From positions 1 through 31,933 of IMG/VR virus record IMGVR_UViG_3300034160_000082: a stretch of 31,933 nucleotides of DNA; one strand, given 5' to 3'. Positions within the stretch are counted from its first letter, which is position 1, and every line of letters starts with the position of its first letter. The stretch is from a virus. Of this stretch, positions 6,907-31,755 are shown one piece after another. The translations under genes and the position numbers were made by a program. The notes beneath the pieces are model-generated. The model saw only the letters and a program-made list of their open reading frames with translations, was not told where the DNA came from and ran no database searches.

Positions 6907-7638
6907 TTATGACCTCGTGATAAGAACGCGAATTGAAACGGCCCGCACAGTAGTACCGGTTTGCACTACTCGCGGCTGTAGCCACGTGTCAGCAGTCATC
7001 GTCAGAACCCCCGATGTACCGCTCAGCGATCCTGATGTCTGGTTATTCCCCCCAGTTGCGATAGTTGCCGAAGTGCTAAGCAGGCTTGTGCGCGCCCCAC
7101 TTGAGCGGTCTACACGGTAAATGTCTATAACTAAGTCAGTGGTGGATGGCTCGTTATTCGGATCACAGTCAATAATGACGGCAGTGACGGTCCCCGCGAA
7201 ACCTGTGGCGGCTCCTGACTTATAGCCAACAACCGGCGCGGCATCGTCTGCCGACAGACTCATTTGCCAAAGATACGGATTAGCTACTGCCAAGTCTGTT
7301 GCCAGACTAGGTAAAGACGCAAACACCGTCACCGAATCGCCATTACTTATCGTTCCCGTTGAGCCCTCTAGCGTTGCGGTCGCCAGGCTAACCGTATCGG
7401 GGCTTGCGTCAGTCCACACCGCTCCGATGTAACGCTTATAGTTAGCGGCGTCCTTGACAACAGTCACCGTGCAGGTGTTCGTCGAATCAAACGCAATTGT
7501 GGTATCTGCCGCCGCCGCGGCAAACGTCCGCGCTGGATATGCGCCAAGTGCCGCTGCAGTACCGCTCAGCGCAACCGCCGGTCCAGTCGTACTATAAGTA
7601 CCTGTCTCAGCCGCAAAGTATGGAAGCGTATCAGCCAT
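6907..7638 (-). CDS. Ala/Thr/Ser-rich putative virion protein (243 aa)
   Basis: ATG at 7638, 243 residues. The composition is dominated by Ala, Thr, Ser, Val and Gly, with short beta-strand stretches and Asp-rich turns (VIIDCDPNNEPSTTDLVIDI). It resembles phage beta-sandwich surface or tail proteins in composition only. It lies twelve bases after the stop of the 239-aa beta-repeat protein and one base before the 208-aa gene. No membrane segment, signal peptide or catalytic motif is visible, and no named family is recognised. Confidence 0.7.
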   Translation of the reverse strand: MADTLPYFAAETGTYSTTGPAVALSGTAAALGAYPARTFAAAAADTTIAFDSTNTCTVTVVKDAANYKRYIGAVWTDASPDTVSLATATLEGSTGTISNGDSVTVFASLPSLATDLAVANPYLWQMSLSADDAAPVVGYKSGAATGFAGTVTAVIIDCDPNNEPSTTDLVIDIYRVDRSSGARTSLLSTSATIATGGNNQTSGSLSGTSGVLTMTADTWLQPRVVQTGTTVRAVSIRVLITRS

Positions 7639-7649
7639 ATGCTACTCTG

Positions 7650-11536: not shown

Positions 11537-12595
11537 TTACAGTTCCGTCACGCCGACTTCGATCTCTGCCATCCAGTCCTGGTTGGTGATCTCAGCCGCA
11601 TGGAACGTGCCTGCCCAGACGTAGCCGCGCTGGCCACCAGGATCAGACTTGGACTTGACCGTGTGTGGAATGTGATTGGCGTCGATGGAGCTCAGGCCAC
11701 GCAGGGCAAGCTGTCGGAATGCGTTTTGGCCCAGCACGATCATCGGATACACGTCGATGTTGGTACTGTTATCGGCCTTGAGCCCAGTAGCGCCAACAGC
11801 CGCGCCACCTCCAGGATAGTAGGTAAGCTCTGCCGCAAGGATGAACCGAAATCCATAGGCCGCACCGATCTCGCCTGGAGCGATGATGTTTGCCGCGCCG
11901 TATTCTTCAATGCCCTTGAAGTCTGGCAACTCACGAATGTCGTGCTCCAAATCCGTGTGGCAATAGACCGGATAAGAGGACTGAATCGGGTAAGTTGCGT
12001 AGCCAGGACCGCCACTGAGCGCCTTGTTCTGTGGGCGACTGTAGCGACGCTTGAGCCCGCGGCGCACCTTTTCCAATATGGTCTTGGTGATGGTGCCGTT
12101 GACCGTGCCAGTCGTGGTACCAGTACCACCAAAGAACGCATTGGTCGCGGCCTTGAGTTTGCCGTAGTTGTACAGCTCGCGCACCAGCGTGATGCGCTTA
12201 CCCGCGAACTCAACTTCCTGCGCTGGAATGTCGTCCTCGAAGAAGATCGCTGTCTCATTCGTGTATGAATACAGGCAATCGAACTGGTACGGCGTGGCCG
12301 TGATAATCGTGGAGGTAACGCTTTCCGCGCCTCGCGTCACACCCTCAGCCGTGCGGTGATAATCGACGATGGCCTGGTCCTTGCCGGGAGCAACCCACTG
12401 GTTGTCAACATCGGTGCCGCCATATCCAGACGGAATGATGAATCGCTTCCACTTGAAAACTTTTCCGCTCTGCGTTGGCATCGGATCGGTTTCACCTGCC
12501 TTCGACAGGTTCTCCTCGAACATCGCGGCTTCGAGAATCTTCCCCTTGACGATACCGACTCGCGCGGTATCACTTGCGAGCATATGGCCGGCCAT
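11537..12595 (-). CDS. Major capsid protein, N4-gp56 family-like
   Basis: ATG at 12595 with a GGGAGATAA ribosome binding site. 352 residues. The sequence follows the N4-gp56 capsid pattern: ARVGIVKGKILEAAMFEENL near the start, then KVFKWKRFIIPSGYGGTD, then a region about 80-160 with EGVTRGAESVTSTIITATPY, FEDDIPAQEVEFAGKRI and LVRELYNYGKLKAATNAFF. The C-terminal half contains VYCHTDLEHDIRELPDFKGI and a Gly-rich loop. It builds the icosahedral HK97-fold shell. Scaffold and portal genes lie directly upstream, as expected. The length is slightly below the 380-400 aa common in the family. Confidence 0.9.
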   Translation of the reverse strand: MAGHMLASDTARVGIVKGKILEAAMFEENLSKAGETDPMPTQSGKVFKWKRFIIPSGYGGTDVDNQWVAPGKDQAIVDYHRTAEGVTRGAESVTSTIITATPYQFDCLYSYTNETAIFFEDDIPAQEVEFAGKRITLVRELYNYGKLKAATNAFFGGTGTTTGTVNGTITKTILEKVRRGLKRRYSRPQNKALSGGPGYATYPIQSSYPVYCHTDLEHDIRELPDFKGIEEYGAANIIAPGEIGAAYGFRFILAAELTYYPGGGAAVGATGLKADNSTNIDVYPMIVLGQNAFRQLALRGLSSIDANHIPHTVKSKSDPGGQRGYVWAGTFHAAEITNQDWMAEIEVGVTEL

Positions 12596-13417: not shown

Positions 13418-13598
13418 TCTTTATTATCTCTTGAGCGAATAGTTGGCCGCGGAGGTACTCAGTCTCGGAGGGGCTTGTGCCGTGCACAGAGAGTTCCCGT
13501 ACCACAAGCCTAGCACGTTCCGCGAGAAAGTCAAGCAGATTATCACATGATACATAATGTGTACCCCCAATCTGAGCCACCTCTAACAAAATGCTCAT
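13395..13598 (-). CDS. Small hypothetical protein between portal and scaffold (67 aa)
   Basis: ATG at 13598 overlaps the portal stop by ATGA, and the gene runs 23 bases into the scaffold gene. 67 residues, with an N-terminal beta-like part (VAQIGGTHYVSCDNLLDFLA) and a C-terminal helix (TEYLRGQLFAQEIIKNALQ). No family is recognised. Both overlaps support a real gene in the head cassette. Confidence 0.6.
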   Translation of the reverse strand: MSILLEVAQIGGTHYVSCDNLLDFLAERARLVVRELSVHGTSPSETEYLRGQLFAQEIIKNALQSSK

Positions 13599-15841
13599 TG
13601 CAACCCCAATTCTGCCAAATCGTCATCAGACACCATCTCGGCCTCTGGCTGCACAAGCGGGTTCATAGGATCGAGCGCGGCATCGCGAGTCTGAAGCTCC
13701 TTCGCGTGCTCATGTGCCTGTGCTTGTTGTGTGGCAGAGCCATCCTGCTTAACGGACTCCTGCGCAACCGCCATGAGACCCTGCGTCTGCACAACCTCTT
13801 TTGCGTGCTCGAACTCCGCACCCTTAATTTGCTGTTCCAGCATAAGCTTCATTTCGCCAAGCTGCGCTTGCATCTGGGCGATTTGAGTATCGGTCTGTGC
13901 ACGAATCTGAGCTACCTGCACTGCAGCTTCGGGCTGCTGTTCCGCGGCACGCAGTTGCTCTTCTTCCTCAGGCGTAATCTGCACATCCTCGTGATTGATG
14001 CCAAAGCCTTCAACAAGCCGTCGCATGAGGCGTTTAGGTGACAATCCATAGACAGGCTGTACTGCACGATCCACTAGCTGAAGCATGGCTTGTTGCTGAA
14101 GCTCCTTCTCAACGAGAATCGAAGACCCGAGTGCGTGGGCAACCGCGTCCGACTGTGCCCTCTCAGGTCCGTATAATTGTACCCAATTGTAGTAGTCTGT
14201 AACAATTGGCGCGCAGTTGTCGTCATCCCAATGCTTGATGAACAGACGAAGATTAGTTGTTGATGAGCCCAAAAGCGCATTAGTGACGCCAACAGAGTCA
14301 GTAACCTTTTGGCCCTGCAACATGAGCGGCAAACCGGTAGTCTGCTCTGCCATTTGGAGCCAATAGTTGATCCACGGAAGAATCTGTGCCAAATAGTTGG
14401 GGAACTCAAGAAACTTAAGTGCGTCCTCTGGTCGTGACTCTTTGCCTTGCATTGCTGCAAGCGCATCCTCAGTGACTTCGTAAACCTTGTACGGATAATG
14501 CTGCCAACCCTCACCTGCTAGCGGCTGAATCCTTCCTTGTCTGAACAAGAGACCAGGGCCGACCGACCAACCTAAGTTGTCCTGTGCGGCACGCACCGCG
14601 GCGTTGAGGCCGCGCTGGGGTGTCTCGATCTGCTCCGGAATACTAATTCCTGCAGGACTATCATTTCTGGCTTCCCAAACCAGGAACCGATAGGGAAACT
14701 CATACGAGTCAGTTGGCAGAGCATTGACTTTGACCAACTTGTCGTTGATGAACTCGAGTTGCAGGAAATGGTACTCGTCTTCTGCAAGACTTTCTGGGTC
14801 TTTGCCAAGACTAGTGGCGATGCGCTCAAGAAATTCCCATTGAGCCCCCTCAAAATCTTCCTCATCAGCACCAAGTTCAGCGCTAAGCTTAGCAATATTG
14901 ACTTCGCCAGTGCGTCGCCAAATCTCAAAAGACTTGCGTGTGGCACCGCCAAGCTCTGAGACACTCTTTGGCTCTTGTGTCAACAAGTAGTCGATTTCCT
15001 CAGCAAAATAACCAGGCGCTGTTCTTAGATTACGAAGCTGTCGCTTAGAAATGTCTGGCACAACCTGCCAAAACCGCCGACCCTTCTGAATATTAGTACC
15101 ACATGCCTTGTCCCAATAGCAATTCTCTATGGGAATTTGCTCAAGTGCCGGTCGCCGCAACACGCGCATTTCGAGTTCAAAACGTAGTGCGGACTGCTGA
15201 AGGGGATCAGCTGCAGCAACAAGCACCTCAACTGCGGAACGTACATCAGGTGTGAGTTTGCGCTCTTCTGGGAACGGCCCGTAGAGGACTCCAGTTCCAA
15301 CGAGTCCTGCCTCTTTGATCTGCTTCCGCGTCTTGGAAGCAAAGTCCGTCTCAAGCAAATAGTCTTTGATTAGGGCGCGGCACACGGCAATGGCTGCTTT
15401 GCGCGCATCTGGAAGTTGCGACAGCTTTGTACGAAGCGCAGCAGGCAATGCTTCGAGCAACTGAGGCTGTGCCTCAAAGTAGGGTCGTAATGTCTCAACA
15501 TCACTGATGGGGGTTTCGCGCAGGTCCCAATTGTCACGATCGCCAGCAGGCAGCAGCAGGTCGCTGGTCCGCGCTGTTCCTGCATTCGTGTATGGGCGGG
15601 TGATGTTGACAGAGACGGTAGAACGTCCGTCGTTGTCGGGCTCACGATAGCCGGTAATGATTGGCCCGTCCAGTGTGCGACCCTTTTCGGGCAATGATGC
15701 GCTGACTTTTTCCGCGTCACCGTGCGCGTACTGAGCGCGGGCACGTGACCATGTAAGCTCAATGCCAGACGCTCTACGATGATTGATGTCCTCAGCACGC
15801 TCAGCAAGAAGCTCCTGGAGATATGGGGATTCAGTGTTCAT
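13595..15841 (-). CDS. Portal (head-tail connector) protein (748 aa)
   Basis: ATG at 15841. 748 residues, the right size for podovirus-type portals. It follows terminase large subunit and precedes scaffold and capsid, the canonical place. Features seen: VNITRPYTNAGTARTSDLLL (about residues 78-97), LETDFASKTRKQIKEAGLVG, a core with ENCYWDKACGTNIQKGRRFW, FLVWEARNDSPAGISIPEQI and MLQGQKVTDSVGVTNALLGS. A long Gln/Glu-rich coiled coil follows (about residues 650-730) that may form the barrel or bind scaffold. It forms the dodecameric ring through which DNA enters and leaves the capsid. Confidence 0.85.
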   Translation of the reverse strand: MNTESPYLQELLAERAEDINHRRASGIELTWSRARAQYAHGDAEKVSASLPEKGRTLDGPIITGYREPDNDGRSTVSVNITRPYTNAGTARTSDLLLPAGDRDNWDLRETPISDVETLRPYFEAQPQLLEALPAALRTKLSQLPDARKAAIAVCRALIKDYLLETDFASKTRKQIKEAGLVGTGVLYGPFPEERKLTPDVRSAVEVLVAAADPLQQSALRFELEMRVLRRPALEQIPIENCYWDKACGTNIQKGRRFWQVVPDISKRQLRNLRTAPGYFAEEIDYLLTQEPKSVSELGGATRKSFEIWRRTGEVNIAKLSAELGADEEDFEGAQWEFLERIATSLGKDPESLAEDEYHFLQLEFINDKLVKVNALPTDSYEFPYRFLVWEARNDSPAGISIPEQIETPQRGLNAAVRAAQDNLGWSVGPGLLFRQGRIQPLAGEGWQHYPYKVYEVTEDALAAMQGKESRPEDALKFLEFPNYLAQILPWINYWLQMAEQTTGLPLMLQGQKVTDSVGVTNALLGSSTTNLRLFIKHWDDDNCAPIVTDYYNWVQLYGPERAQSDAVAHALGSSILVEKELQQQAMLQLVDRAVQPVYGLSPKRLMRRLVEGFGINHEDVQITPEEEEQLRAAEQQPEAAVQVAQIRAQTDTQIAQMQAQLGEMKLMLEQQIKGAEFEHAKEVVQTQGLMAVAQESVKQDGSATQQAQAHEHAKELQTRDAALDPMNPLVQPEAEMVSDDDLAELGLQ

Positions 15842-15894: not shown

Positions 15895-17538
15895 CTAATA
15901 AGCCATCACAGTATCTTTAGGCTTCCACGTCGAAGCTTTGCCCATGCTGAAACTTGGCGTCAATGACTTGATTGATTTGCCTCGTGGAGGCATGAACGAC
16001 AGCACAAAGCTGTCCCACTCGTCAGGACTCGGCGATGACAACTTCTCCGCGAGGCTGTTGCCCGCGGCAAATCGTGCCCTGTACTGCTCTTTGGACTCAA
16101 TCAGCAGTGCACCGCCCTTATGCGAGTAATGGATTGCAGTTGCCTGCCGCAAGAACATTTGGGACTCAGGAATAATCGGCTCTTGCTCTGCAAGATAGGT
16201 CTTGGCCTGATCGTGCAGCCACGCACGCCAATTATAATGAGCACCATCGGCAAGCTTTGCGCCGGTGTGCACAGCCACAAGAATCGAAGCAAATGGCGAA
16301 TAGCGAAGTTGGTCTGCGCAGGAGATGCCTGGCCCGTCGTTCTCAAGGCAAATTAGCTCAAGTGGCCCAGACTTGAGCAGCTCTCTTGCAACATCCTGTA
16401 CTACTCTTGCAAGCTGAATCCCATCCATCTTTCCCATCGTGAGCACTGGCAGATTCAGTCGGCCGCGCCTACGCCACAGCTTGATCTTGTCGTTGCCCAT
16501 TCCCGCGGCGTCGATACTGAGTCGCCATGCCACGTCAAATGGCAACTGCGTCTCTGACGCACGGCGCTTAAAAGCAGCCCTGATCGTGTCTGTGTCAACG
16601 AACTGCACCGCGGAGGCCGCGTCGTCGATCATCAGATATTGGGTCTTGAAAACCGCAGGCGATGCCTCGGCCTCTGTCTTGATATACCAGGGCTCTTGCT
16701 CAGGCGGCAATTCGGGATTCTGCCGCTTGCGAGGGTCCTCTTCCCACTGGAACACAAAGACCTGTGCTTCGGGCATTCGCTGCTCCAGCAGATAGAAATG
16801 GCTGGAGCGCCAACCCGAGGTAGGAATCGTACCACCGTAGATGCAGCATTCTGTGTTGGCGATCAGCGCGCTTTCGACATGCTGCGGATGTGCTAGTTCG
16901 CCAAACTCGTCAGGCATCGCAATCGTGGAGCGGCCACCACGGCCAATGTTGTCACCAATCTCGCCAATTAGTGTTGCACCGTTGTTCGGATTAACAACGA
17001 GAAAGTTTTTAGAGGCTCGCTCCCACTGCTCTGGCACGAATGGCTTTGGCAAATGCCGGATACCGGAGCGAATCTTCCAGAATAACGAGTCCGGATTGCC
17101 GTCACCCGCATCAACTTTCTCTTCCTTTTGAGAACCGTAGGTGATGACGCTGCCAGGGCGGGCAAGCCAAAGCAGGATGCCAATGAAGGCGTTGATCCAA
17201 GACATTCCCGCGTCACGATGCTTGCGACAGACGCCGCGCTGCTGGCGCACGAACCGTTGGTAGACCCAATCGACGTACTGAATTTGGCGCTCAGACAGAA
17301 TGAACGGGCGATACTGGAGTCGCAGGTCTGTCGCTCGAGGATCGTAAGTCACGCCCCAATCGCAAATGAACTCCGCCCAATGACCGTCCAAGTAGTATTG
17401 CAAAAGAGGTTCGAACGCGCCAGGCTTGTCCGCGAGCCTCGCTAAGTTTCGGGCGCGTGCCGCGAGGATCTTCTCGTAGGCGAGAAGTGGGTCTTTCCAG
17501 TCAAGTGCGTGGGAGAATTGGATGGCGCGGGTGGTCAC
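15895..17538 (-). CDS. terL: Terminase large subunit (547 aa)
   Basis: The start is GTG at 17538, overlapping the previous stop as GTGA. The ATPase half has a Walker A-like CRKHRDAGMSW at about 104-114 and a Walker B-like STIAMPDEFGEL at 204-215 with the catalytic Glu after Asp. The nuclease half has LSIDAAGMGNDKI (Asp343), ICLENDGPGI (Glu399/Asp401) and PDEWDSFVLSF (Asp506/509), the three acidic positions of an RNase H-fold terminase nuclease. It pumps DNA into the prohead through the portal and cuts concatemers. The Walker A lacks the usual GKS/T, as in several other phage terminases (a KxxRxxGxS form). Confidence 0.92.
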   Translation of the reverse strand: MTTRAIQFSHALDWKDPLLAYEKILAARARNLARLADKPGAFEPLLQYYLDGHWAEFICDWGVTYDPRATDLRLQYRPFILSERQIQYVDWVYQRFVRQQRGVCRKHRDAGMSWINAFIGILLWLARPGSVITYGSQKEEKVDAGDGNPDSLFWKIRSGIRHLPKPFVPEQWERASKNFLVVNPNNGATLIGEIGDNIGRGGRSTIAMPDEFGELAHPQHVESALIANTECCIYGGTIPTSGWRSSHFYLLEQRMPEAQVFVFQWEEDPRKRQNPELPPEQEPWYIKTEAEASPAVFKTQYLMIDDAASAVQFVDTDTIRAAFKRRASETQLPFDVAWRLSIDAAGMGNDKIKLWRRRGRLNLPVLTMGKMDGIQLARVVQDVARELLKSGPLELICLENDGPGISCADQLRYSPFASILVAVHTGAKLADGAHYNWRAWLHDQAKTYLAEQEPIIPESQMFLRQATAIHYSHKGGALLIESKEQYRARFAAGNSLAEKLSSPSPDEWDSFVLSFMPPRGKSIKSLTPSFSMGKASTWKPKDTVMAY

Positions 17539-20365: not shown

Positions 20366-20442
20366 GTCTGCCACCACGGACCGATAGTAGCAGCCCAGCC
20401 GCAGTCGAAAGTACCCCCAGGCGAGACTCCCAGACTGCGAGA

Positions 20443-20458
20443 CCCCCCCCCCCCCCCC
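20443..20458. repeat. 16-base C homopolymer
   Basis: Sixteen consecutive C residues, preceded by the C-rich stretch GTACCCCCAGGCGAGACTCCC. Such a long mononucleotide run is rare in compact phage genomes and is prone to slippage. The exact count may vary between copies or be affected by sequencing. Confidence 0.85.
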
Positions 20459-20471
20459 GTCTGAGCGAGCC

Positions 20472-20687
20472 TTGGCACGCGGCTTGCACTCGCGCTCGCG
20501 CGCACGCGAGGAGCAAGGGCCATGCCAGGTGTTGGCACGAGCATTGCTATTCGCGCGAGGAGCAAGAAGAATGCCAACCTATGGACCATGCCTGGCATGA
20601 GGGTTGCTACGCGCGAGGAGCAACAAGTGGGCCAGAGCATTGGCATAGCAATTGCTATTCGCGCGCCCGCGCCCGCTTCTTTAGGTG
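20472..20687. repeat. Tandem array of imperfect 60-bp repeats
   Basis: TTGGCA (CTGGCA in the third unit) starts units at 20472, 20532, 20592 and 20640, so the first three are exactly 60 bp apart and the last is 48 bp away. Each unit continues with a TTGC element about eight bases later. In the first three this is followed by CGCGAGGAGCAA. The first two end with ATGCCA, giving an inverted TTGGCA...TGCCAA pair within the unit. The last unit diverges after CGCGCG. The position between divergent operons suggests iterons, packaging or regulator sites. Confidence 0.7.
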
Positions 20688-20709
20688 GGCCGCCTGCGCG
20701 CGAATAGCA
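20653..20709. repeat. 14-bp perfect inverted repeat
   Basis: The arms TGCTATTCGCGCGC (20653-20666) and GCGCGCGAATAGCA (20696-20709) are perfect complements separated by 29 bases. The left arm is part of the last unit of the 60-bp repeat array, and the same TTGCTATTCGCGCG also occurs in unit 2. It can form a long stem in RNA or a cruciform in DNA just upstream of the early promoters. Confidence 0.75.
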
Positions 20710-20777
20710 CAAAGCGGGGCCGCGGTCAAATGAAATCTGGCAATGTTAAGGATAGCGAAAGATTCTTCGCGGGGCGC

Positions 20778-20806
20778 TTGACACCCCATCGGGCATGGCC
20801 TATAGT
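20778..20806 (+). promoter_or_regulatory. Early promoter P1 (sigma-70 type)
   Basis: TTGACA at 20778-20783 and TATAGT at 20801-20806 with an optimal 17-bp spacer. A small inverted repeat (GCGAA...TTCGC, 20756-20771) lies directly upstream of the -35 box. It is oriented towards the first early genes. Confidence 0.75.
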
Positions 20807-20867
20807 TTCACCATCAGATCACGGAACGAAATGGCGATCTAGGGACGGAAGAATCTAGCACGGAGGC

Positions 20868-20895
20868 TTGACAACCCAACCAAATAGGCTAAGAT
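20868..20895 (+). promoter_or_regulatory. Early promoter P2 (sigma-70 type)
   Basis: TTGACA at 20868-20873 and TAAGAT at 20890-20895, spacer 16. It shares the phrase CTTGACAACCC with P3. It lies about 30 bases upstream of the 20-aa reading frame. Confidence 0.6.
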
Positions 20896-20926
20896 GTAAC
20901 CAACAGAAACAAACCGAGAAAACAAA

Positions 20927-20989
20927 ATGCTCCTGATAGCACTACTGATAGGTGTGATTGCAATCATAACCGAGTGCCTTTGCGACTAA
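20927..20989 (+). CDS. Possible 20-aa hydrophobic peptide
   Basis: ATG at 20927 with CCGAGAAAA upstream, TAA at 20987-20989. The peptide reads MLLIALLIGVIAIITECLCD, a single hydrophobic helix followed by an acidic, Cys-containing end. It is the first frame after promoters P1 and P2 and lies 14 bases before the next gene. It could be a tiny membrane peptide, a leader peptide or chance. Confidence 0.4.
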   Translation: MLLIALLIGVIAIITECLCD

Positions 20990-22229: not shown

Positions 22230-22814
22230 ATGAACGAAATCACCCTTTCCCTGCCAATCAGTATCCAAGTTGGTGGACCTGCTGGTCACGAGCGCAACAT
22301 GAGTACCGCGCTTTGGAACGCAGACTTCCTGCTGGAAATGGCCCTGCACGGCATTAAGCAGCGCCGCACTGACAAATTCAGCGTGCAGAAAGCCACCAAA
22401 GGGCTCGACGACGCCATCAAAGGGCTGCTGGAGCTTGACGCACGCCTGATTGCAGGTGAGATTCCCGCAGGTGGTGGTGGTGGTGGCCCCAGGCAATCGC
22501 CGGAGACGAAAGGCTGGCTGGCCTACTTCAAGAGTGCGAAGCACCAGGAGGGCTCAAAGGCCGTTACGAGCGACACGCTCGAGCGCGCCAAGGACAGCTA
22601 TGTCAGGACGGGGCTGCTGCGCAGCCTCAAAGACAAGGCGCTTGAGCAAGCAAAGCAGGACATTCGCCCCTTCATGGCGAAGTATCGCCAGGTGATTCTG
22701 GATCAGGCTGAAAAGCGCCGGGACAAAGGCCAGCCCGGCTGGTTCATCCAGAAGGAACTGGAGAGCCGCAACGTGACTGAAATTGCCGAGTTCGACCTCG
22801 ACATTAAGGCGTAG
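22230..22814 (+). CDS. Early protein with Gly6 linker (194 aa)
   Basis: ATG at 22230 after the AACGGAGACACAACG leader. 194 residues in two parts. Residues 1-80 begin ITLSLPISIQVGG and continue with helices (ALWNADFLLEMALHGIKQRR). A six-Gly linker (PAGGGGGGP) follows. The C-terminal 110 residues are Lys/Arg/Glu-rich helices (SDTLERAKDSYVRTGLLRSL, KALEQAKQDIRPFMAKYRQV). The basic second half suggests nucleic-acid or protein binding. No named family is recognised. It is one of the larger early proteins and more GC-rich than its neighbours. Confidence 0.7.
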   Translation: MNEITLSLPISIQVGGPAGHERNMSTALWNADFLLEMALHGIKQRRTDKFSVQKATKGLDDAIKGLLELDARLIAGEIPAGGGGGGPRQSPETKGWLAYFKSAKHQEGSKAVTSDTLERAKDSYVRTGLLRSLKDKALEQAKQDIRPFMAKYRQVILDQAEKRRDKGQPGWFIQKELESRNVTEIAEFDLDIKA

Positions 22815-22891: not shown

Positions 22892-23074
22892 ATGACGATA
22901 ATCCGTAACACCCACACTCAGAACATCTTTGCAGGTTTTACTCCAAATGGAAAGACACGATGGGTTATGTATGAAGATGGCATGGTAGCCGTTATTTTCA
23001 TAACCAAAGAACAAGCCAACGAGGTTGCTCGAGACTTGCGAAACCACGGCTTTGTTGTGGAGGTGATATCGTGA
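22892..23074 (+). CDS. Small early protein (60 aa)
   Basis: ATG at 22892 after GAGGAGACACAAC. 60 residues, MTIIRNTHTQNIFAGFTPNG, then KTRWVMYEDGMVAVIFITKE and a helix (QANEVARDLRNHGFVVEVIS). It is a compact alternating beta/alpha protein. Its base composition is more AT-rich than that of the preceding gene. The stop overlaps the next GTG start (GTGA). No family is recognised. Confidence 0.65.
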   Translation: MTIIRNTHTQNIFAGFTPNGKTRWVMYEDGMVAVIFITKEQANEVARDLRNHGFVVEVIS

Positions 23075-23223
23075 ACGAAACCCAGCAACTCAACGACACA
23101 ATCGCCCAAGCAACCTGGCTCGCAGCCGAATCCGGCTACGCAGACATTGAGGAACTTTGGCTCTCTGATCCAGACCTGTTTGTGAGCTTGGCGCAAGAAT
23201 GGCGCCAGGAGCAATCCCACTAG
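23071..23223 (+). CDS. Small acidic early protein (50 aa)
   Basis: GTG at 23071 overlaps the previous stop (GTGA) and has a perfect GGAGGTGAT ribosome binding site five bases upstream. 50 residues to the TAG at 23221: MNETQQLNDTIAQATWLAAE, then SGYADIEELWLSDPDLFVSL. It is helical and acidic, with no basic residues except two Arg near the end. It is too short for a common gene-length cutoff, but the start signal and coupling are strong. Function unknown. Confidence 0.65.
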   Translation: MNETQQLNDTIAQATWLAAESGYADIEELWLSDPDLFVSLAQEWRQEQSH

Positions 23224-23231
23224 GCTCTTCC

Positions 23232-23257
23232 GCAACACCATTTCCAAATGGTGTTGC
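23232..23257 (+). other. Strong 12-bp hairpin after the 50-aa gene
   Basis: GCAACACCATTT pairs fully with AAATGGTGTTGC; as RNA the top pairs would open to a loop. It is followed by TGGGtaGCACTACC, matching the sequence after the 22165 hairpin. No T-run follows. Confidence 0.65.
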
Positions 23258-23282
23258 TGGGTAGCACTACCTGAGCCAAACA

Positions 23283-23314
23283 CCCCACCCAGATAATAAC
23301 TAATCTGGGTGGGG
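23283..23314. repeat. 12-bp inverted repeat CCCCACCCAGAT
   Basis: CCCCACCCAGAT (23283-23294) and ATCTGGGTGGGG (23303-23314) are perfect complements with an AATAACTA loop. The core CCCACCCAG recurs at 23529 and, inverted, at 23610. Confidence 0.75.
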
Positions 23315-23465
23315 CGTACACACCCCCCGTTACCAACCAACTTCAGGGGGGGACCCAGCAGTAGTAAAATACACACATATATATATATTTATATCTCTAT
23401 AGGGGTGCTTTTACGCTACATCCGGGACTCCCCCTCAAATCGGTTGGTAACGGGACCTGTGTACG
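23315..23465. repeat. 151-nt nested imperfect inverted repeat (ncRNA or cruciform candidate)
   Basis: From outside in, these segments are complementary: CGTACACA with TGTGTACG (23315/23458), CCCGTTACCAACC with GGTTGGTAACGGG (23326/23442), a G7 run with the CTCCCCC stretch (23346/23428), CCC with GGG (23354/23424), GTAG with CTAC (23361/23416) and TAAAA with TTTTA (23365/23409). The apex is an AT-rich loop with an (AT) run. About 40 base pairs can form in order without rearrangement. It lacks an open frame. Confidence 0.7.
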
Positions 23466-23634
23466 ACCCTAAAGTCAATAAAAACAATAACTTAACCTAA
23501 ACAGCCATAACACACGTGTAATAATACACCCACCCAGCCGCACAACTAACCCCCCAAAATTCGAGCAACAGCACCCATTAATTTAACTTACTGACAATAA
23601 TAATCCTGACTGGGTGGGGCACGCCTAATATGGG

Positions 23635-23663
23635 TTGACAACCCATAATACCTATGTTATACT
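23635..23663 (+). promoter_or_regulatory. Early promoter P4 with overlapping operator-like palindrome
   Basis: TTGACA at 23635-23640 and TATACT at 23658-23663 with 17-bp spacing, the best promoter in the early half with P1. The palindrome ATGGGTT-GAC-AACCCAT (23630-23646) covers the -35 box. The next gene encodes a ribbon-helix-helix protein, so autorepression is plausible. Confidence 0.75.
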
Positions 23664-23707
23664 AGGCCCCACATGACCAATTCCACCTAGGCTTAACCAG
23701 TCAGCTT

Positions 23708-24025
23708 ATGTCCAAAAAACTCCCACCAGAACAACGAGCTGTGCCTCGTAGTATTTCCCTTTCTCAAATTGATTGGGAGTACGCGGCGCAACTTAGCCCC
23801 GACAACAACGTCTCGCGCGGAATTAGAGTAATGCTTGACGAGCATCGCGCAAGAGCCGGGCGAAGCTGGAACCGAGAGCCCACACCGCAGGTACCAGTGC
23901 AACTCGATATTAAGCCTGATGAAGAAGGCTACGAGACAATAATGCGCGGGCTTGCAGAAGATGCGCGGCTTAGTGAAGCGCTTAAAGCGAGACACGAGCG
24001 CTTGCGGACGGGACATGCAAAATGA
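23708..24025 (+). CDS. Ribbon-helix-helix-like transcription regulator (105 aa)
   Basis: ATG at 23708, 45 bases after the P4 -10 box. No clear ribosome binding site is present. 105 residues. Residues 11-48 have the RHH order: a short strand AVPRSISLSQ, helix IDWEYAAQL, turn SPDNNVSRG and helix IRVMLDEHRARAG. The VSRGIR phrase is typical of the second helix start. RHH proteins bind DNA as dimers, with the strands in the major groove, and usually repress their own promoter; the palindrome on P4 fits. The C-terminal half is charged and helical. The stop overlaps the HNH-like gene as ATGA. Confidence 0.7.
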   Translation: MSKKLPPEQRAVPRSISLSQIDWEYAAQLSPDNNVSRGIRVMLDEHRARAGRSWNREPTPQVPVQLDIKPDEEGYETIMRGLAEDARLSEALKARHERLRTGHAK

Positions 24026-24510
24026 CGCCAATTCTGCTCGGTATCCCATTACCTCTCGGCAAGCTTACTGACTATGTAGTATGGGCAGCGCCAGACCCAC
24101 TGCGCACAGAGCGCAAACGCCGCATACAGTGGGAAACCACTACTAAGCGTACTCACGGGCGAGCCCATCGGCACGCGGCACCACGCAACTTCCCCGAAGG
24201 ACGAGACACCCTTAACAGTGATGCACCATTAGGCAAGCCAGGCAAGTTCTGGCCCATTAACGGTATTCACACCCAGCAGGAGCTTGCCGCGCTGTTCCAG
24301 ATGCGCGGCCCCTTCCTGTGTGACCACAATAATGTGATCGCGGGTCGGCTCGTGGGCAACCTAGGTCGCGTCGTCGCACTGGAAGGCTACGAGTACCCTG
24401 CACAGGACATTGCCTGGTGCCTGCAAACAGGCGCTTGGCCTCACAGCCCACTAACGCACATCGGTGCGTTGGGCGATAACCGGAGGGAGAACCTCCAGGA
24501 GACACAATGA
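24022..24510 (+). CDS. HNH-type protein with degenerate active site (162 aa)
   Basis: ATG at 24022 (ATGA overlap). 162 residues. The C-terminal 60 residues follow the phage HNH endonuclease layout: IAGRLVGNLGRVVALEGYEY, PAQDIAWCLQTGAWP, then LTHIGALGDNRRENLQE. This aligns with the usual 'HRLAW...G.WP...IDHINGD..DNR..NL'. The first catalytic His is Gln (PAQDIAW), and the DHxNG core reads THIGA, so cleavage may be lost or altered. The first 90 residues are Arg/His/Lys/Pro-rich and may bind DNA. Phage HNH genes act in packaging, homing or DNA repair; the role here is open. Confidence 0.65.
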   Translation: MTPILLGIPLPLGKLTDYVVWAAPDPLRTERKRRIQWETTTKRTHGRAHRHAAPRNFPEGRDTLNSDAPLGKPGKFWPINGIHTQQELAALFQMRGPFLCDHNNVIAGRLVGNLGRVVALEGYEYPAQDIAWCLQTGAWPHSPLTHIGALGDNRRENLQETQ

Positions 24511-30273: not shown

Positions 30274-31755
30274 ATGCCCAACTCAACCCCCCAGCAACTC
30301 GCGTGCTATTCTCACGCCACCGACCCCACCTCTGGCAGCCTCGCAATCCGCGCTCGCGCCGGCACAGGCAAAACCTCAACCCTTCGTGCTCTCGCGGCCA
30401 AGCTTCCAGGCACCGGCCTTGCGACCAGCTTCTCCCGCAGCACAGTTGCTGACCTTAAGGCAGCAATGCCCTCGAATTGGGAGGCAGTAGGAATGCACGC
30501 GCTCGGTCTTCGAGGCATCAAAACTCGTCTGCCCCAGTGCACCATCGACACCAACGGCAACGCGCTCTACTCCTTTATCAAGGAGCAACTCAAGTCCGAG
30601 GACGAAGATTGGAAACTTCTCCCCGACATCCGTGCGCTCGTCGAAAAAGCCGCGATCTGCGGATTGGTCCCCAACAACGAGCGCAGCCTTCTGCAAGACA
30701 TCCCCGAAGTCTGGGAAGAGATTGCCGACCTCTACGACATTGAGACCAATCCGGTCGTGCTTGACCTGGCCCGCCAAGCGCTGATCTACAGCAACGAGCA
30801 GGCCCTCCAGGGCAACATCATGTTCATGCACATGCTGACGCTGCCATTGTTCTTTGGCTTCCCGCTCGCGCAGTATCCGAAGATCATCGTTGACGAGGCT
30901 CAGGATCTCAACATCCTCCAGCACATGCTTGTTGCAAAGGCGCTCCGACATAATGGACGCATCTTCGCGGCAGGCGATGATCGCCAGGCAATCTACGCCT
31001 TTGCGGGTGCGCGGACCAACAGCTTTGATGAGCTGTCTACTCGATTCAGTGCCACCGGGCTGCCCCTCACAGTAAGCTGGCGCTGTGCCCAGGAGGTCAT
31101 CCGCGAGGCCCAGCAATGGGTGCCCGACATCGAATGGGCTCCCGGAGCCATCGAGGGCAGTGTTGTTCCAGTTCAACACACTGAACTGGAGGACCTCCCC
31201 CGCATCATCCTCTGTCGTAACAATGCTCCTCTTACGCGGCTCGCTATGCGCCTCTTTGTGGCAGGCCATTCTGTCGAGTGCGCAGGCCGCGACATAGGTG
31301 CCGGCCTCAAGTCCACCATGACTCGGGTCGCAGCTACGAAAGACTCCGAGCATATGCCCATCGCGGAATTTCTTTCACGCCTCCAACGCTGGGCCGCCCG
31401 CGAGATCGAACGTCGCCCCGGTCGCAAGCCGCGCGTGCACGATAAGGTAGAGGCACTTACCGCGCTAGCCGAGACCCATACAACTGTTGGCGCTGTCCGC
31501 AAACACATCGACAACCTGTTTGTGGACCAAGACGGAGACAAGCGCACTAAGCAGCCTCCAGAATTTGTGCTATCTACAGTGCATAAGGCTAAGGGTCGAG
31601 AATGGTCTCGAGTTGGTTTTCTTGACGCGCACCTGCTGCCGAGCAAGTACGCGACAACGCCTGAGCAAATCCAACAGGAGGCGAATGCGAGCTACGTCGC
31701 CGTAACACGAGCAAAGCAAGAGCTTGTGTATTTAGACTCTAACATGATTCTGTGA
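30274..31755 (+). CDS. UvrD/Rep-like SF1 DNA helicase (493 aa)
   Basis: ATG at 30274 with TAGGAGCC upstream. 493 residues with a full SF1A motif set: Walker A ARAGTGKTST (27-36), Walker B IIVDEAQD (204-211), motif III GDDRQAIYAFAGA (234-246), motif IV SWRC (268-271), motif V STVHKAKGREW (434-444) and motif VI YVAVTRAKQEL (474-484). It unwinds DNA with ATP, so it should act in phage replication or recombination. It is shorter than UvrD or Rep (about 700 aa), so the 1B/2B inserts must be reduced. Host-like helicases of this short type occur in other phages. Confidence 0.9.
   Translation: MPNSTPQQLACYSHATDPTSGSLAIRARAGTGKTSTLRALAAKLPGTGLATSFSRSTVADLKAAMPSNWEAVGMHALGLRGIKTRLPQCTIDTNGNALYSFIKEQLKSEDEDWKLLPDIRALVEKAAICGLVPNNERSLLQDIPEVWEEIADLYDIETNPVVLDLARQALIYSNEQALQGNIMFMHMLTLPLFFGFPLAQYPKIIVDEAQDLNILQHMLVAKALRHNGRIFAAGDDRQAIYAFAGARTNSFDELSTRFSATGLPLTVSWRCAQEVIREAQQWVPDIEWAPGAIEGSVVPVQHTELEDLPRIILCRNNAPLTRLAMRLFVAGHSVECAGRDIGAGLKSTMTRVAATKDSEHMPIAEFLSRLQRWAAREIERRPGRKPRVHDKVEALTALAETHTTVGAVRKHIDNLFVDQDGDKRTKQPPEFVLSTVHKAKGREWSRVGFLDAHLLPSKYATTPEQIQQEANASYVAVTRAKQELVYLDSNMIL

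Follow-up and report, generated by a model that had tools for sequence, protein, structure and literature searches.

The window analysed here is a virus record of 31.9 kb, part of the genome of an uncultivated tailed phage. Its structural block lies on the minus strand and includes genes for the capsid (11537-12595) and the portal (13595-15841), followed by a gene at 15895-17538 that we take to encode the large terminase, given where it lies and what its homologues are, and without a family match. The portal is distantly related to those of HMO-2011-like and other phages. A plus-strand early block faces these genes and ends in a UvrD-type helicase gene (30274-31755), the only type of helicase seen in the window. 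A search of the phage collection returned no close DNA relatives, DNA comparison with known phages or plasmids gave no usable match, and single-sequence protein searches with the genes neighbouring the element described below found no relatives.

The element occupies a gap at 23224-23707, which contains a long inverted repeat centred on an AT-only tract. The protein of the synteny marker gene (22230-22814) has a low-confidence predicted structure of mean pLDDT 53 and no match in the PDB. The second gene past the element (24022-24510) encodes 162 aa with a weak match to an HNH endonuclease PHROG. Family matches for the neighbouring genes are uninformative, and none of these genes can be named as an initiator. 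The features of the locus are as follows.

22230-22814, plus strand: gene upstream of the element that serves as synteny marker; its product is Gly-rich and has an SPxxKGWxAYF motif
23232-23257, no strand: perfect 12-bp inverted repeat with a 2-nt loop, just past the upstream gene, without a T-run
23284-23292, plus strand: CCCACCCAG copy 1, left pair, also within a small hairpin at 23280-23317
23305-23313, minus strand: CCCACCCAG copy 2, left pair, inverted
23311-23469, no strand: long imperfect nested inverted repeat, defined by arm geometry, folding against shuffles and an arm scan
23377-23394, no strand: AT-only tract ATATATATATATTTATAT, a putative DNA unwinding element that ranks lowest in duplex stability in the window at both 20 bp and 30 bp
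23529-23537, plus strand: CCCACCCAG copy 3, right pair
23610-23618, minus strand: CCCACCCAG copy 4, right pair, inverted
23635-23663, plus strand: sigma-70-like promoter TTGACA-17-TATACT (11/12), overlapping a near-palindrome at 23626-23650
23708-24025, plus strand: first gene past the element; its 105-aa product matches no family and is RHH-like only by eye

The palindrome and its AT-rich centre

The nested inverted repeat described in an earlier note on this DNA is present, with gapless arms of 54 nt each (23311-23364 and 23416-23469) that are 78% complementary and separated by 51 nt. The outer segments CGTACACA (23315-23322) and TGTGTACG (23458-23465) are fully complementary, as that note had claimed, and pairing is likewise perfect between CCCGTTACCAACC (23326-23338) and GGTTGGTAACGGG (23442-23454) inside the arms. 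When every fifth base of the window was taken as a centre and scored for flanking arms, this repeat ranked highest of the 6327 centres, with a score of 32 against a mean of 9.7 (sd 2.1). The comparison with shuffled controls that the note had called for places the hairpin far beyond chance (z from -6.8 to -7.8): as RNA, the plus strand folds with an MFE of -75.7 (z -6.8; 0 of 200 dinucleotide shuffles as good) and the minus strand with an MFE of -86.2 (z -7.8), and the z-score for folding as DNA is -6.8; in all three cases none of 200 dinucleotide shuffles folded as well. The AT-rich apex with an (AT) run also proved real, in the form of the 18-nt AT-only tract at 23377-23394. No tRNA or tmRNA was detected. 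A T7-like phage promoter candidate in the apex, TATAGGG, has no second occurrence in the window and was rejected.

Two statements about the surroundings of the repeat fared less well. That no reading frame spans it is literally false, since a mechanically called 63-aa frame with a GTG start (23309-23500, plus strand) does so; a 152-aa frame on the minus strand (22918-23376) enters the hairpin as well, and neither frame looks coding-like. Nor is the gap unique in the early half as a long stretch without genes, as the region at about 20367-20930, between the divergent gene blocks, is also gene-poor and rich in repeats. That region carries a long C run from near 20446 and three direct repeats of about 25 nt (at 20503, 20552 and 20610), and its segment 20405-20453 shows DNA similarity to the ends of contigs L004 and L005. 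Repeats of this type were not seen in the matching regions of two related genomes, G001 and G002.

The short repeat CCCACCCAG is concentrated around the hairpin. Four of its five copies in the window fall within the gap, where they form two inverted pairs, one on each side of the hairpin; only 0.16 copies are expected over the whole window.

The same gap in related phages

Profiles for the capsid, terminase and helicase recovered relatives of this phage, and six contigs reach the locus: G001 (41.9 kb), G002 (32.2 kb), G003 (13.3 kb), G008 (58.9 kb), G011 (61.5 kb) and L116. In G001, G002, G003 and G008 the gap is directly preceded by a homologue of the window gene 22230-22814; the gene at that position in G011 and L116 bears it only a weak resemblance, as judged by eye. 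On the opposite side, a UvrD-type helicase gene lies several kilobases past the gap, except that G003 ends before this gene, G002 ends inside it and G011 carries it at the other contig end. In the close relatives the location of the gap is a matched position and not a chance match. The terminase profile found no prophage relatives in bacterial genomes, and a search of viral contigs for the exact stem pattern returned a single unrelated match that is not a hairpin of this type.

An AT-rich tract is present in the non-coding gap of all six relatives and sits inside an inverted repeat in five, counts that come from looking in the syntenic gap for a hairpin or an AT tract and so have some selection built in. 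The hairpins have z-scores of -4.2 (G003), -4.1 (G002), -5.5 (G001), -6.4 (G011) and -5.9 (L116); the arms in G001 and G002 score high, yet are not the top of their genomes. The hairpin is not universal, because G008 combines its AT tract with many direct repeats and has no long hairpin above background. Stem sequences differ from genome to genome, with each element pairing by itself. Since the arm sequences differ and an alignment of four elements shows no common base pair, it is the unstable AT centre that has been kept, along with a palindrome in most cases, and not the sequence of the stem. Every relative's gap also contains short repeats of its own, confined or nearly confined to it, such as AAACGTACCACAGGTCTACCA in G011 and AATGAATCAATG in G008.

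We calculated duplex stability from nearest-neighbour energies in 20-bp and 30-bp windows over all available sequence of each genome. In seven of seven genomes (the window and its six relatives), the AT-rich tract in the gap ranks first as the least stable duplex at both sizes; because intergenic gaps are generally AT-rich, the odds against coincidence are less extreme than the length of the gap suggests.

Several other observations were made in these records. A very strong hairpin in MW202426 (L007:7471-7670, z -7.8) lies right after a primase-like gene and is followed by a T-run; its position beside that gene and its T-run led us to reject the hairpin (7491-7640) as the same element, and it is probably a terminator. 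In G008, the gene for the ribonucleotide reductase large subunit (L110:11901-14639, minus strand) has an internal LAGLIDADG-like domain and a weak intein-splicing match, making the insert a probable intein. The same record contains a tandem repeat array with a 15-base period (L109:132-586), as in a pentapeptide-repeat-like gene.

Candidate functions of the gap

Because both strands of the hairpin fold strongly, the gap might be thought to encode a structured non-coding RNA, a rod-like transcript made during infection, perhaps from the minus strand, and acting as a decoy, an antisense RNA or a regulator. Across six elements, the arm mismatches do lean toward pairs that would be G.U on the minus strand (44 versus 12), but composition alone predicts 37.5 +/- 3.5 A.C mismatches where 44 are seen, leaving no significant strand bias, and in composition-controlled folding neither strand is consistently better. 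No Rfam covariance model matches at its gathering threshold, and most of the matches with weak E-values are to eukaryotic miRNA precursors, that is, generic hairpins. Covariation in relatives, proposed in the earlier note as a check on its non-coding RNA option, gave nothing in favour: RNAalifold found 0 common pairs among four aligned elements, a weak test since these sequences are very divergent and the quality of their alignment limits it. In addition, the right-hand side of the hairpin has no promoter-like site directed into it, and the part that is conserved, the (AT)n tract, would be an unusual core for a functional RNA. We therefore consider an RNA product unlikely.

A marginally less probable explanation is that the gap is regulatory DNA between two early operons, acting as a transcription barrier or an operator cluster or serving the promoter at 23635 as an upstream activating region. 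This strong sigma-70-like promoter overlaps a palindrome, and about 170 bp separate it from the hairpin on its left; it is one of a family of related TTGACAACCC-type sigma-70-like promoters on the plus strand (20778, 20868 and 23635), suggesting a shared early regulator. The other early promoters, however, have no comparable AT tract nearby, and nothing requires a regulator site to have the lowest duplex stability in each of the genomes. The hairpin also lacks a T-run, and an intrinsic terminator, composed of a GC hairpin and a T run, is accordingly unlikely.

It is very improbable that the element is a site for partition, recombination or attachment (parS-, att- or resolution-type) or the remnant of a mobile element. 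Although inverted repeats are common in such sites and the contigs G003 and G011 both stop no more than about 300 bp away, the element is single copy and at the same locus in all relatives reaching the gap, no partner recombinase or ParB occurs among the proteins scanned (part of the genomes), and the 51 nt between the arms set it apart from a perfect telomere-resolution palindrome. The earlier suggestion of a mobile-element remnant is disfavoured by the same single copy and constant place, and a MITE or other mobile repeat, for which multiple copies or a patchy presence would be the mark, was rejected given presence at the gap in six of six relatives.

We consider it probable, from the arrangement of sequence features, that the gap at 23224-23707 is instead a phage replication origin, with likely initiator sites on either side of a long palindrome that has an unwinding element at its centre. 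Origins in general have initiator-binding repeats together with some AT-rich DNA, about 20 bp long (PMC5043065). Easily melted AT-rich DNA of about this length, as in theta-type origins, is found in all seven genomes, and repeats of initiator size beside the putative unwinding element are represented by CCCACCCAG and by the gap repeats of the relatives. These gap-specific repeats look like iterons of lineage-specific initiators and would be candidate binding sites. Genes for DNA polymerase A, a ligase and a DUF3987 protein are present in a near-complete relative, and a phage-owned origin is therefore to be expected. The origin option of the earlier note, with its cruciform and unwinding element, thus gains support from a stability minimum that recurs at one syntenic gap in seven related genomes and from the local short repeats. 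GC skew was a more equivocal guide. In most genomes it starts out positive or about zero and turns negative near the gap, even though the genes on either side run the same way; the change point is 0.3-1.6 kb off the element and the sign of the change is opposite to that of the usual G-rich leading strand. We take the skew as suggestive only and reject it as proof.

In a working model of this origin, a phage initiator would bind the inverted repeats on both sides of the hairpin, and the (AT)n centre would melt, possibly aided by cruciform extrusion in supercoiled DNA. The replicative helicase and the phage DNA polymerase A might then load at the melted centre. A role for the sigma-70-like promoter, located 240 bp rightward of the AT tract, could be to express the early operon that follows and to contribute negative supercoiling.

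The candidate origin compared with known layouts

A palindrome with an unwinding element at its centre is a layout better known in herpesviruses than in tailed phages. The parts of the candidate origin resemble those of lambda and plasmid origins, while its layout resembles that of herpesvirus oriS. As in lambda-type and iteron plasmid origins (PMC5043065), partly inverted repeats of initiator size lie beside an AT-rich unwinding element near early genes. In contrast to those origins, a long palindrome encloses the AT tract here and repeats flank it left and right, and the candidate origin is intergenic instead of lying within an initiator gene, with no initiator that can be named. Inverted boxes around a central (AT)n spacer, in a sequence capable of forming a hairpin, are shared by the window element and herpes simplex oriS and oriL (PMC12543377). 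The sequences are unrelated, however, and the helicase seen in the window is of the UvrD type, with no UL9-like helicase identified; oriS is thus the closest layout by analogy, not by membership. The origin of the ICP1-satellite PLE (PMC7145576) similarly places inverted repeats converging on an A/T tract in a phage-related non-coding region, but it has a RepA_N initiator and semi-palindromic direct repeats, neither of which was identified here.

More tentatively, this clade of tailed phages may use an origin of the herpes oriS kind, a long palindrome with its (AT)n centre as unwinding element, the sites in its arms and flanks evolving fast together with a lineage-specific initiator. The relatives that reach the locus are few (six). 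Origins of uncultivated phages are rarely known. The rule that emerges for this clade, in 7/7 genomes, is that the least stable duplex and a private set of repeats, mostly in a palindrome, share one syntenic gap. Such a rule makes the candidate origin predictable from sequence, offers a target for replication mapping and points to a putative initiator.
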